Translations under genes and position numbers: made by a program
NCBI GenBank assembly: GCA_002352125.1
Contig: DEHU01000027.1
Coordinates: forward strand, 1 to 5,171
Direction: 5' to 3'
Origin: Competibacteraceae bacterium UBA2792
Lineage (GTDB): Bacteria; Pseudomonadota; Gammaproteobacteria; Competibacterales; Competibacteraceae
Length of the DNA stretch: 5,171 bases
Shown: one piece after another, positions 1,022-5,171 of the stretch
How the letters are laid out: each line of letters starts with the position of its first letter
Position numbering within the stretch: the first letter of the stretch is position 1
Notes under the pieces: model-generated
What the model saw: the letters and a program-made list of their open reading frames with translations, nothing else
Told to the model about the DNA's origin: nothing
Databases searched by the model: none

Positions 1022-2896
1022 ATGGCTTACGCTTCCAACGAACCACAATCGATTCCCACGCTCGCCGCCGCCTTGCAAAATCAAACCGTCGAAAATCTGA
1101 AAAAATTTGCCGCCCTGGTGAACGACGCGGAGGCGAAACCGGCCCGCAAGGCGGATTTGATCGCGTTCATCCTACGCTACACGAACGGCGAACTGGGCCG
1201 ATTGCGCCAGGTCGAGGACGATCCCTTGCAAGCCCTCTGGCGCAGGCTCGATACGTTCCAGCAGGCGGTGGTGGCCGAGACCGTCCACGGTCCGGATTCG
1301 CGTTTCGACGTCGAGCGGTTCCGGGCGAAATATGGCCAGGCTCCCGATTTGAGTAAAGCCGATTTGTACACTTATCGTCAGTCGATTTCGTTGCTGAACC
1401 TGTTTATCCACGACGGGATCATGCCGGACGATCTGCGGCGGAGGTTCAAATCCTTCGTGCCCAAACCCGAACCGGTGCGGCTTTCGCCCCAAAACGAGAT
1501 TCCCGCCGAGTGGGTGCTGACCTACCAGGAATGGGATGAAAAGACCCGCAAGAGCAAAGCGTGCCAGCAGAGGGTTCCGATCACCCAGCGCCTGACCGAA
1601 CGAGCAGCCGTTCACGACCTCAAGGCGATCCTCCGCCTGATCGACGCCGGCAAGCTGGCGGTCAGCGACAAGACCCACCAGCCGGGCGCCGCCGCCCTGC
1701 GGACCCTCGACGCGCTGTTGCTGGGCGGCGATTTCTACGACGACAGCGGGTACGGCGAGTACGAGAAAATCGGCCCGATCAAGCCGTTCGCCTGGCCGAT
1801 GCTGGTACAGTCCGGCGGACTGGCGTCCCTGAGCGGCAAGACGTTGCAACTGACCAAGGCCGGGCAAAGGGCTCTGAGCGAGCCGGTGGAAAAAACGCTG
1901 GCGCAATTGTGGCAGCGCTGGCTGAAAACTACGCTGTTCGACGAGTTGCGGCGCATCGACTGCATCAAAGGCCAGACCGGCAAGGGCAAGCGGGGGTTGA
2001 CCGCCGTCGCCGGGCGCCGCGCCGCCATCCAGCAGGCGTTGCGTGGCTGCCCGCCGGGCCAATGGATCGCGGCCTACGATCTATTTCGCCAGATGCGGGC
2101 CACCGGCGCGGGTTTCGAGGTCACCCGCGATCCCTGGAATCTCTATGTCTGCGAACCCGGTTACGGCAATCTGGGTTCCGAGGGCTATCACGATTGGGAG
2201 ATTCTCCAGGCCCGCTACGCTCTCTGCCTGCTGTTCGAGTACGCCGCCACCCTGGGATTGCTCGACGTGGCCTATATCCCGCCGCACGGCGCCCGCCCGG
2301 ACTATCGCGATATCTGGGGCACCGACGATCTGGCCTTTTTCAGCCGCTACGACGGACTGCTCTACTTTCGCATCAATCCGCTGGGGGCCTACGCGCTGGG
2401 GTTGGCCAACCGCTACCAGCCAGCCGCGCCGGAAGTTGCCGCCACTCCCCTGCTGCGAGTGTTGCCCAATCTGGAAATCGCCGCCATCGGCGCGCGGCTG
2501 GAACCGGCCGACGCCATGCTGCTGGATAGCTACGCCGAGAAGGTGTCCGACGCGGTGTGGAGACTGGAGCAAAGCCGCCTGCTGGAAGCCTTGGAAGCCG
2601 GCCACGATATCGCGGTGCTGGCGGAACTGCTGGTTTCGCTCGGCGGGCAGCCGCTGCCGGAGACGGTGGAGCGGTTTCTGGAAGACATGGCCTGCCGCGT
2701 CCGCAGCTTGAAAGCCACCGGTACCGCCCGGCTGATCGAGTGCGCCGACGCGGTGCTGGCGACGCTGATCGCCAACGACAGCCGCACCAAACCGTATTGC
2801 CTGCTGGCTGGCGCCCGTTATCTGGCGGTGCCGGCCGAGTCCGAAGCCCGCTTTCGCGGCGCCCTGCGCAAGCTGGGTTACGGCCTGCCCAAATGA
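1022..2896 (+). CDS. helicase-associated protein, probable partner of the XPB helicase (XPB/Ssl2 N-terminal-like domain)
   Basis: Protein of 624 residues with no enzymatic motif that I can see. Residues 11-53 look like a small SAP-like helix-loop-helix (tentative). Residues about 195-285 and 390-465 read as winged-helix-like units (for example LTKAGQRALSEPVEKTL and INPLGAYALGLANRY). A basic loop at 316-333 could contact nucleic acid. Residues 475-565, starting TPLLRVLPNLEI and including QPLPETVERFLEDMACR, resemble the Pfam Helicase_C_3 / XPB-Ssl2 N-terminal domain. A short alpha/beta tail follows (566-624) ending LRKLGYGLPK. That C-terminal half also resembles the N-terminus of the helicase downstream. 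The ATG at 1022 has a weak AGGT (1011-1014) seven bases upstream. The stop overlaps the helicase start as ATGA, so the two are probably co-translated. A gene of this type sits beside ercc3 in mycobacteria (Rv0862c/Rv0861c, from memory). Role as a helicase regulator or DNA-binding partner is inference. Confidence 0.85.
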   Translation: MAYASNEPQSIPTLAAALQNQTVENLKKFAALVNDAEAKPARKADLIAFILRYTNGELGRLRQVEDDPLQALWRRLDTFQQAVVAETVHGPDSRFDVERFRAKYGQAPDLSKADLYTYRQSISLLNLFIHDGIMPDDLRRRFKSFVPKPEPVRLSPQNEIPAEWVLTYQEWDEKTRKSKACQQRVPITQRLTERAAVHDLKAILRLIDAGKLAVSDKTHQPGAAALRTLDALLLGGDFYDDSGYGEYEKIGPIKPFAWPMLVQSGGLASLSGKTLQLTKAGQRALSEPVEKTLAQLWQRWLKTTLFDELRRIDCIKGQTGKGKRGLTAVAGRRAAIQQALRGCPPGQWIAAYDLFRQMRATGAGFEVTRDPWNLYVCEPGYGNLGSEGYHDWEILQARYALCLLFEYAATLGLLDVAYIPPHGARPDYRDIWGTDDLAFFSRYDGLLYFRINPLGAYALGLANRYQPAAPEVAATPLLRVLPNLEIAAIGARLEPADAMLLDSYAEKVSDAVWRLEQSRLLEALEAGHDIAVLAELLVSLGGQPLPETVERFLEDMACRVRSLKATGTARLIECADAVLATLIANDSRTKPYCLLAGARYLAVPAESEARFRGALRKLGYGLPK

Positions 2897-4569
2897 GCGC
2901 TTACGCCCCCGACAACCCGCTGATCGTGCAGAGCGATCAGACGGTGCTGCTGGAAGTGCATTCGCCCCGCGCCGAAGCGGCCCGCGAGGCCATCGTGCCG
3001 TTTGCCGAATTGCTCAAGAGTCCGGAGCATATCCACACCTATCGGATCACGCCGCTGAGCATCTGGAACGCCCGCGCCGCTGGCCTGAGCACGGCGGAAA
3101 TGATCGAAGTGCTGAACCGCTATGCCAAGTACCCGGTGCCGGAAGGCGTGGTCCAGGAAATCGAGGCGCTGGGCCGGCGCTACGGGCTGGCAGTGATCGA
3201 ACGCGGCGCCGATCAGGGCCTGGTGTTGCGAGTGGCCGACGCGCCGCTGGCGGAACTGCTGGCGCGCGACCGGCGGGTGGCGCCCCTGCTGGGCGAACGG
3301 CCGACGGCGTTGCAATTCCGCATTCGGCTGGGCGTGCGGGGTCTGCTCAAGCAGGCGTTGGTCGCCATCGGCTATCCCGCCGACGATCTGGCCGGCTACG
3401 CCGAAGGTCAGGAATTGCCGCTGCGGTTGCGCGAGATCGCGGGCGGGGGCGAGCCGTTCGTCGTGCGCGACTACCAGCGGGAAGCAGCGGCGGCCTTCTA
3501 TCAGGATGGTCAGGCGCGCGGCGGTAGCGGGGTGATCGTGTTGCCCTGCGGCGCCGGCAAGACCATCGTCGGCATGGCGACGATGGCCCTGATCCAGGAG
3601 AACACCCTGATCCTGACCACCAGCCAAACCTCGATGGAGCAATGGCGGCGGGAACTGCTGGACAAGACCGATCTGCCGCCGGACGCCATCGCCGAATACA
3701 GCAGCCAACGCAAGGACACCGGGCCGGTAACGCTGGCGACTTACCAGATGCTGACCTGGCGCCCAAACCGGGACGGAGAGTTCGTCCATTTTGGCCTGTT
3801 TCACGCCCGTTCCTGGGGGCTGATCATCTACGACGAAGTACATTTGCTGCCGGCACCGGTGTTCCGCATTACCGCCGAGCTGCAATCGCGCCGCCGGCTG
3901 GGGCTGACCGCCACCCTGATCCGGGAGGACGGCCTGGAAGGCGACGTGTTCGCGCTGATCGGCCCGAAGCGCTACGACGTGCCGTGGCGGGAACTGGAAG
4001 GGCAGGGCTGGATCGCCGCCGCCAACTGCACGGAGATTCGGATTGCCCAGACTCCAGAACGGGACATGGAATACGCTCTGGCGGCCCGGCGCAACCAGTT
4101 TCGTATCGCGGCGGAAAATCCCTGCAAGCAGGCGGTGGTCCGGGACCTGCTGAAGCGGGAAGCGGGGCATCGCATTCTGGTGATCGGCGAGTACATCAGC
4201 CAGTTGGAGGAGCTAACGGCGAACATCGGGTTTCCGTTGCTGACCGGCAAGACCCCACAACTGGAGCGGGAGCGGCTGTATCAGGCGTTCCGCGACCGGG
4301 CGGTGCCGGGTCTGGTGTTGTCGCGGGTGGGGAACTTCGCCGTGGATTTGCCGGACGCGGACGTGCTGATCCAGGTGTCGGGCAAGTACGGTTCCCGCCA
4401 GGAAGAGGCGCAGCGGCTGGGGCGAGTACTGCGACCCAAGAGGGACGGGCGCCGGGCACGGTTTTATACCTTGGTCAGCCTGCGCACTTGCGAAGAGGAT
4501 TTTGCCCGTCACCGGCAACTGTTTTTGACCGAGCAGGGCTACAGCTATCGCATCGAGGGCGTAAGCTGA
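2893..4569 (+). CDS. xpb: XPB/ERCC3-type DNA repair helicase (superfamily 2, DEVH box)
   Basis: ATP-dependent 3'-5' DNA helicase/translocase of the XPB family; eukaryotic members open DNA in TFIIH for transcription and nucleotide excision repair. At 558 residues it is close to mycobacterial XPB. Order: XPB N-terminal/clutch-like domain (about 8-105); alpha/beta segment that may match the damage-recognition domain (106-165); Q-motif-like RDYQREAAAAF (192-202); Walker A LPCGAGKT (217-224); TTSQTSMEQW motif Ia (242-251); Walker B DEVH (314-317); motif III LTATLIRED (338-346), which includes the XPB-specific RED triad (344-346); second RecA lobe with LSRVGNFAVDLPDA (476-489) and motif VI QRLGRVLRPK (507-516) with its arginine fingers. 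All core residues are present, so it should be active. The chosen ATG overlaps the upstream stop (ATGA). The frame stays open upstream to 2557, but there it only shadows the preceding gene and lacks family similarity. There is no nuclease domain and no long eukaryotic N- or C-terminal extension. Confidence 0.95.
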   Translation: MSAYAPDNPLIVQSDQTVLLEVHSPRAEAAREAIVPFAELLKSPEHIHTYRITPLSIWNARAAGLSTAEMIEVLNRYAKYPVPEGVVQEIEALGRRYGLAVIERGADQGLVLRVADAPLAELLARDRRVAPLLGERPTALQFRIRLGVRGLLKQALVAIGYPADDLAGYAEGQELPLRLREIAGGGEPFVVRDYQREAAAAFYQDGQARGGSGVIVLPCGAGKTIVGMATMALIQENTLILTTSQTSMEQWRRELLDKTDLPPDAIAEYSSQRKDTGPVTLATYQMLTWRPNRDGEFVHFGLFHARSWGLIIYDEVHLLPAPVFRITAELQSRRRLGLTATLIREDGLEGDVFALIGPKRYDVPWRELEGQGWIAAANCTEIRIAQTPERDMEYALAARRNQFRIAAENPCKQAVVRDLLKREAGHRILVIGEYISQLEELTANIGFPLLTGKTPQLERERLYQAFRDRAVPGLVLSRVGNFAVDLPDADVLIQVSGKYGSRQEEAQRLGRVLRPKRDGRRARFYTLVSLRTCEEDFARHRQLFLTEQGYSYRIEGVS

Positions 4570-4590
4570 CGCCGCGCCCCATTGCGTCCA

Positions 4591-4613
4591 ACCGAGAGCC
4601 GGTGAGCTCTGGT
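4591..4613 (+). repeat. small inverted repeat after the XPB operon
   Basis: ACC-g-AGAGC (4591-4599) can pair with GCTCTGGT (4606-4613) around a six-base loop, giving eight pairs with one bulged G. It begins 22 bp after the helicase stop. No run of T follows, so it is not a classical intrinsic terminator. It could protect a 3' end or help Rho-dependent ending, or be chance. Confidence 0.3.
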
Positions 4614-4614
4614 A

Positions 4615-4642
4615 CTTGCTCCGTCGCGGGAACGAAAGCAAG
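4615..4642 (+). terminator. possible weak terminator hairpin downstream of xpb
   Basis: CTTGCT (4615-4620) pairs with AGCAAG (4637-4642), and CGT (4622-4624) with ACG (4632-4634) inside it, leaving a seven-base loop and a small internal bulge. It lies between the XPB operon and the AT-rich region before cysI, where a transcript end would be expected. The sequence after it is AT-rich but has no T-run, so intrinsic termination is doubtful. Confidence 0.25.
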
Positions 4643-4712
4643 AGATAATGATAAGTTATAAATTTATGGTAAAAAAATTCTTTATTTGCATATAAAAGCG
4701 ATGGTAGTGTTT
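4641..4712 (+). promoter_or_regulatory. AT-rich island, probable promoter/operator region of cysI
   Basis: Only 16 of these 72 bases are G or C, in sharp contrast with the GC-rich genes on both sides. It contains a perfect 10 bp palindrome ATAAATTTAT (4658-4667), -10-like hexamers GATAAT (4644-4649), TATAAA (4657-4662) and TATAAA (4691-4696), an A7 run (4671-4677) and TTTATTTGCAT (4681-4691). No -35 box with correct spacing stands out, which would fit an activator-dependent promoter. Genes of the cys regulon in gammaproteobacteria are commonly activated by the LysR-type protein CysB, which favours AT-rich sites. CysB control here is inference; no diagnostic site was recognised. Confidence 0.5.
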
Positions 4713-4713
4713 T

Positions 4714-4743
4714 CGGCCTAATCGCCCGGGCCCGATTCGGCCG
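4714..4743 (+). repeat. inverted repeat in the cysI upstream/leader region
   Basis: CGGCC-t-AATCG (4714-4724) pairs with CGATT-c-GGCCG (4733-4743): ten pairs with one T/C mismatch around the eight-base loop CCCGGGCC. It lies directly after the AT-rich island and ends 26 nt before the GGGGA ribosome-binding sequence of cysI. No T-run follows on either strand, so it is not an intrinsic terminator. It may be a leader hairpin or a dyad for a DNA-binding protein. Confidence 0.5.
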
Positions 4744-4783
4744 GAGCGGGAGCAACCGGACTTTCAGGTGGGGACCGACCACG

Positions 4784-5171
4784 ATGTATCAGTACGACCA
4801 ATACGATCAAACGCTGGTGGACGAGCGGGTAAACCAGTTCCGTGGCCAGGTTCGGCGTTATCTGGCCGGCGAACTGAGCGACGACGAGTTTCGACCGCTG
4901 CGGTTGATGAATGGACTCTACATCCAGCGCCATGCGCCGATGTTGCGGGTCGCCATTCCCTACGGGCTACTGTCGTCGCGGCAACTGCGCGCCTTGGCTC
5001 ACATTGCCCGCCGCTACGACAAAGGTTTCGGTCATTTCACCACCCGTCAGAACATCCAGTATAACTGGCCGAAGCTGGAAGAAACGCCGGATATCCTCGC
5101 CGAGCTAGCCCAAGTGGAGATGCACGCTATTCAGACCAGCGGCAACTGTATCCGCAACGTCACCGCCGACC
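4784..5171 (+). CDS. cysI: sulfite reductase hemoprotein (beta) subunit, N-terminal part (partial at right edge)
   Basis: Assimilatory sulfite reductase reduces sulfite to sulfide with six electrons, using siroheme and a 4Fe-4S cluster in the cytoplasm; the product feeds cysteine synthesis. The first 129 residues are present of a family usually near 550. Visible features: DERVNQFRGQVRRYLAGEL (13-31); RLMNGLYIQRHAPMLRVAIP (40-59); and the first nitrite/sulfite reductase ferredoxin-like half-domain through YDKGFGHFTTRQNIQYNW (78-95), ending in TSGNCIRNVTAD (118-129). Arg55, Arg88 and Arg124 lie in the conserved segments that hold siroheme- and anion-binding arginines in this family. The cluster cysteines lie beyond the window. 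Start ATG 4784 is preceded by GGGGA (4770-4774) with nine bases of spacing. The gene stands alone after a 214 bp gap and is probably transcribed from the AT-rich island. A ferredoxin-nitrite reductase is the main alternative, but the N-terminus looks like the proteobacterial CysI type. Confidence 0.9.
   Translation, partial: MYQYDQYDQTLVDERVNQFRGQVRRYLAGELSDDEFRPLRLMNGLYIQRHAPMLRVAIPYGLLSSRQLRALAHIARRYDKGFGHFTTRQNIQYNWPKLEETPDILAELAQVEMHAIQTSGNCIRNVTAD

Follow-up and report, generated by a model that had tools for sequence, protein, structure and literature searches.

An overlapping gene pair in Competibacteraceae that probably encodes a two-subunit, XPB-p52-like motor

The locus and its two genes

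The window, as we call the whole 5,171-nucleotide stretch of DNA analysed here, stems from a Competibacteraceae genome that, among named organisms, is related most closely to Candidatus Competibacter and Contendobacter. It carries two genes in tandem, one for an XPB helicase and, ahead of it, one for a protein that we refer to as the partner (Table 1). An earlier note on this DNA had described them as adjacent and overlapping, which is correct, and the region it singled out indeed runs from partner residue 475 (position 2444) to XPB residue 163 (position 3381). Upstream of the pair, a phosphofructokinase gene points away from it, and downstream a nitrite/sulfite reductase gene starts; scanning the flanks (850-1100 and 4540-4830) yielded no promoter- or terminator-like sites, and no tRNA was found within the window.

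Table 1. Features of the partner-XPB gene pair (positions in the window)
Feature	Position	Strand	Remark
Partner gene	1022..2896	+	624 aa; p52-like protein; ORF
Partner SAP/Rho-N-like helical segment, residues 13-56	1058..1189	+	weak
Partner winged-helix-like segment, residues 63-150	1208..1471	+	weak
Partner region aligning with p52 winged-helix part, residues 152-470	1475..2431	+	predicted fold
Partner clutch module, homologous to XPB N-terminus, residues 472-624	2435..2893	+	
ATGA overlap	2893..2896	+	XPB start codon over partner stop
XPB helicase gene	2893..4569	+	558 aa; NF045503 equivalog match
XPB N-terminal (clutch) domain, residues 8-136	2914..3300	+	PF13625 and human XPB alignment
XPB two-lobed helicase core, residues 190-554	3460..4554	+	ResIII 190-343, ERCC3_RAD25_C 368-554

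The helicase matches the NCBI equivalog model NF045503 with 835.9 bits over residues 9-555 (cut-off 610), and its residues 8-554 align with residues 23-571 of the human XPB chain 8ebt_A. Its GAGKT (220), DEVH (314), RED (344) and QRLGR (507) motifs, which we take to be Walker A, DEVH, RED and motif VI, respectively, are intact, and the patterns G[AS]GKT, DE[VC]H, RED and Q[RA]LGR are present in 121 of 121 aligned XPB rows. According to PMC6422496, XPB is the motor by which DNA is opened during human transcription and repair; the literature consulted also includes PMC3353954, PMC7672443, PMC13316683, PMC13024598, PMC10534295 and PMC9258230. The function of bacterial and archaeal XPB is called more elusive in a section of a 2026 review, and one purified bacterial XPB is described in a passage of this literature as having worked only at high molar excess.

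A module shared by partner and helicase

The earlier note had proposed that the C-terminus of the partner resembles the N-terminus of XPB, a similarity confirmed by alignment, by the Pfam family PF13625 (Helicase_C_3) and by hhalign. Local alignment of the two segments scored 79, as compared with a shuffle mean of 32.8 (sd 5.6), and none of 2000 shuffles scored as high. PF13625 scores above its curated threshold (34.2) in each protein, with 36.6 bits in the partner and 122.5 bits in XPB (residues 10-136), and at E <= 0.001 these are the only two places it matches in the window's genome (75% complete). In profile-profile comparison, partner residues 460-624 matched XPB residues 1-186 with E 1.8e-5 (probability 78%), the controls (partner N-terminus with XPB N-terminus or core, partner C-terminus with XPB core) reaching only E 0.06-0.28; full-length profiles gave E 6.5e-4 (28%) in one direction and 8.7e-6 (83%) in the other. 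Marginal values came from a search that included 19,965 locally shuffled decoys, in which an HMM of the partner C-terminus ranked XPB first (E 0.017) and an HMM of the XPB N-terminus ranked the partner second (E 1.3).

The extent of the match, which had been drawn by eye over the whole length of both segments, has to be qualified. Statistics directly back partner residues 512-621 with XPB residues 49-162; for the ~37 residues at the start of the module, the evidence is PF13625 (profile positions 5-119) and the predicted fold. When both window segments were aligned together with two other partners, three of the four landmark pairs fell into identical columns, and the first, PLLRVLPNLEI / PLIVQSDQTVLL, was shifted by one column.

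On profile evidence, intermediate partner families bridge the gap between the partner module and the XPB N-terminus. A six-row profile of actinobacterial partners (type A) gave E 1.4e-12 against the module in the window's partner and E 9.1e-7 against the XPB N-terminus; the Paenibacillus partner matched the latter with E 2.8e-8, and both gave E 0.22-0.24 against the XPB core. For the Deinococcus partner, E was 5.7e-6 with the window's partner module and 4.7e-4 with the XPB N-terminus. Moreover, a profile of ten partner modules, built without any XPB, placed XPB at ranks 1-7 (E 5.7e-4 to 0.013) and p52 at ranks 9 and 10 (E 0.12-0.14) among 177,635 PDB sequences.

Judged by these sequence comparisons, homology of the last 150 residues of the partner with the N-terminal module of XPB is confirmed. 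In a tree of 28 modules, of which 12 of 25 inner branches are open and two rows are long, all 14 XPB N-termini cluster together (94/98; recovered in 93% of 200 bootstrap trees), separate from the 14 partner modules, and the module of the partner therefore looks like the product of an ancient split rather than a recent copy of the adjacent gene. The shared domain itself is already recorded in Pfam as PF13625, under a misleading name: "helicase conserved C-terminal domain" hints at neither the XPB N-terminus nor a pairing.

Predicted architecture of the partner

Homologues of the partner are numerous (2055 proteins at E <= 0.001 among 7998 candidates scored), and PF13625 is precomputed for 116 of 120 relatives among the matches listed. 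It is also the sole Pfam family at E <= 1 in the partner itself; the Bax1 nuclease domain, which we take to be family DUF790, was not found at that threshold. Tfb2 (presumably PF03849) was equally absent there and from the 21 families matched by 43 partner-family members at E <= 10, and a full-length profile of window-type partners had no PDB match at E <= 10. Because this sequence test for Tfb2 failed, we term the partner p52-like rather than filing it as p52.

Foldseek searches with an AlphaFold2 model of the partner (pLDDT 83.9, pTM 0.76) returned TFIIH chains throughout ranks 1-41, and a winged-helix region followed by a clutch is predicted, as in p52 and as the earlier note had expected; whole-chain TM-scores with p52 are low (0.29/0.38 for 8ebs_D). 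Residues 473-624 of the model align with XPB residues 71-293, reaching further along XPB than the p52 clutch does. Among the p52 structural rows, 11 stop at p52 residues 399-405, three human ones (7lbm_Z, 7ena_4, 6o9l_2) extend to 435-451 at an rmsd of 8.3-9.0, and the remainder carry fungal numbering; in these predicted-fold alignments, a clear counterpart of the p8-binding tail of p52 was not seen. At the other end, partner residues 13-56 bear a weak resemblance to a SAP/Rho-N helix pair, which might serve to hold nucleic acid.

Co-occurrence and adjacency across genomes

In two groups of bacteria, partner and XPB show near-strict co-occurrence and adjacency. Among 40 relatives, the partner and an above-cut-off XPB were found in the identical nine genomes (Fisher 3.7e-9, genome kinship ignored). 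PF13625 occurs in 14 of 39 Competibacteraceae genomes, with exactly two matches, 116-125 bases apart, in all 14. Within single genera of this family the pair is present in some genomes and absent in others, which points to its having been gained or lost as a unit.

Cyanobacteria form the second group. Here, PF13625 was found in 11 of 386 genomes, ten of which hold both partner and XPB, and one of these (G647) holds two pairs (C23 and C71). The gap between the matches is 140-635 bases in nine pairs; in the other two it is 1267 and 3455 bases. Of the 11 partner matches, 5 reach the PF13625 cut-off. G101 is the exception: its XPB is intact, it lacks an intact partner, and short fragments of a partner and of a second XPB remain. 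Such decayed C-termini of XPB or partner occur in three cyanobacteria (G101, G165 and G198; L084:3768-3920, L085:3808-3984 and L086:4005-4355) and are read as signs of pair loss.

Further afield, a PF13625 partner comes after XPB in Paenibacillus, where the two overlap by 14 bases, and in Deinococcus, where one small gene separates them; in Arthrobacter the open frame of the partner lies upstream of that of XPB and overlaps it, and in Nonomuraea and Tsukamurella the two are about 3.5-3.8 kb apart. Eleven contigs of equal size among 120 listed partner and 120 listed XPB relatives suggest additional pairs. A survey of the phylum found the partner in 2 of 398 genomes, the window's own and G295, where XPB precedes it. 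In nine of nine genomes of the Pseudomonadota family f28 (L081-L083, L087-L092, e.g. L082:3184-4635), another protein of 464-761 aa precedes XPB with a 1- or 4-base overlap and a weak clutch signal only; in G295 (L081), an f28-type gene is joined by XPB and a window-type partner in a run of three overlapping genes.

Speaking against strict pairing, partner relatives without XPB in the flanks examined reside on plasmids of Cupriavidus, Polaromonas, Rhodococcus, Shewanella, Streptomyces and Kitasatospora; on the plasmids of the first four, no second PF13625 place was found. The Cupriavidus relative (L025:7743-9782) has Wadjet genes nearby, the Polaromonas one (L026:7989-9764) Hachiman genes.

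Comparison with known systems

In human TFIIH, according to passages of PMC6422496, p52 residues 306-399 fold like the N-terminal domain of XPB and the two modules dimerise pseudo-symmetrically, sheet against sheet; this interaction brings XPB into TFIIH and stimulates its ATPase, in agreement with the earlier note's picture of XPB held and stimulated by p52 through similar clutch domains. The bacterial pair shares with XPB-p52(-p8) the N-terminal module of XPB and a partner in which a winged-helix region precedes a module of that fold. It differs in consisting of two overlapping genes without a clear p8-binding tail, and its partner differs from p52 in a module extending to XPB residue 293, a possible, weakly indicated SAP-like N-terminus and the missing Tfb2 match.

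Rv0862c, the neighbour of the mycobacterial XPB (Rv0861c/Ercc3), presumably belongs with these partners. That XPB, where described in the source, has an N-terminal domain of the same kind; five of five actinobacterial partners examined match PF13625, and in three of the five (Nonomuraea, Arthrobacter, Tsukamurella) XPB lies beside the partner or within 4 kb. Type-A proteins differ in aligning with the window's partner over its second half only (224-532 with 263-622). Three of seven scanned type-A members contain a WYL domain (e.g. L032:115-2220), which in the Nonomuraea protein follows the clutch, the position of the p8-binding tail in p52.

A two-subunit motor and its alternatives

The reading as a minimal XPB-p52-like gene pair is supported by the shared module, the predicted p52-like architecture and the near-strict co-occurrence, and the helicase motifs are intact. 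Since the module of the partner is homologous to the XPB N-terminus and the rest has a p52-like fold, this overlapping gene pair probably yields a motor of two subunits, resembling XPB-p52, whose related modules would lock sheet to sheet. Both proteins would be co-translated from the overlapping start and pair through their clutches in a pseudo-symmetric heterodimer like that of human TFIIH. By analogy, the partner would grip the module of XPB with its own, deliver XPB to DNA through its winged-helix and SAP-like parts, and stimulate or position the ATPase as p52 does. The most likely use of such a pair would be DNA opening at lesions or at foreign DNA.

We consider it unlikely that the two genes are chiefly a mobile cassette for defence or genome stability instead of a housekeeping repair complex, an alternative that would leave the molecular pairing unchanged. 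The patchy presence of the pair in Competibacteraceae and cyanobacteria, the decayed remnants and the plasmid relatives beside Wadjet and Hachiman genes fit such a cassette, whereas the partner matched none of the PADLOC families at E <= 1, the PADLOC matches of XPB are confined to its helicase core, and the window places the pair between the phosphofructokinase and nitrite/sulfite reductase genes with no defence gene.

Improbable to a greater degree is that the module serves as a nucleic-acid-binding domain used separately by two proteins of one pathway, with no heterodimer formed through it. The partner module does run past the p52 clutch into the DRD-like region, which in human XPB (165-300) is described as DNA-binding in part of PMC6422496, and partner relatives do occur without a neighbouring XPB. 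Against this stand the corresponding modules being the XPB-p52 interface in human TFIIH (same passages), the co-occurrence with XPB in two groups and the p52-like layout ahead of the module. A Bax1-like nuclease subunit would be in line with archaeal XPB, which also has a dedicated protein partner, but is very hard to credit given the fold matches of our partner to p52 and XPB, PF13625 as its sole Pfam family at E <= 1 and the contacts of the nuclease Bax1, which, in the part of PMC7293015 concerned, are with the thumb and HD2 of XPB and not its N-terminal clutch.

Implications

In the open-access literature, no paper on a bacterial p52-like partner was found. Returning to the two-subunit motor, a p52-like escort could explain why purified bacterial XPB, in the passage cited above, needed a high molar excess, and the bacterial pair would offer a two-protein model of the clutch region hit by human disease mutations. 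A bacterial XPB with such an escort would also suggest that part of TFIIH predates eukaryotes. We tentatively propose, with somewhat more doubt than confidence, that the XPB-p52 pair is older than TFIIH: it may have arisen in prokaryotes from one duplicated clutch module, with eukaryotes building TFIIH around the pair and bacteria retaining it as a stand-alone machine of two genes, with several lines of partners.
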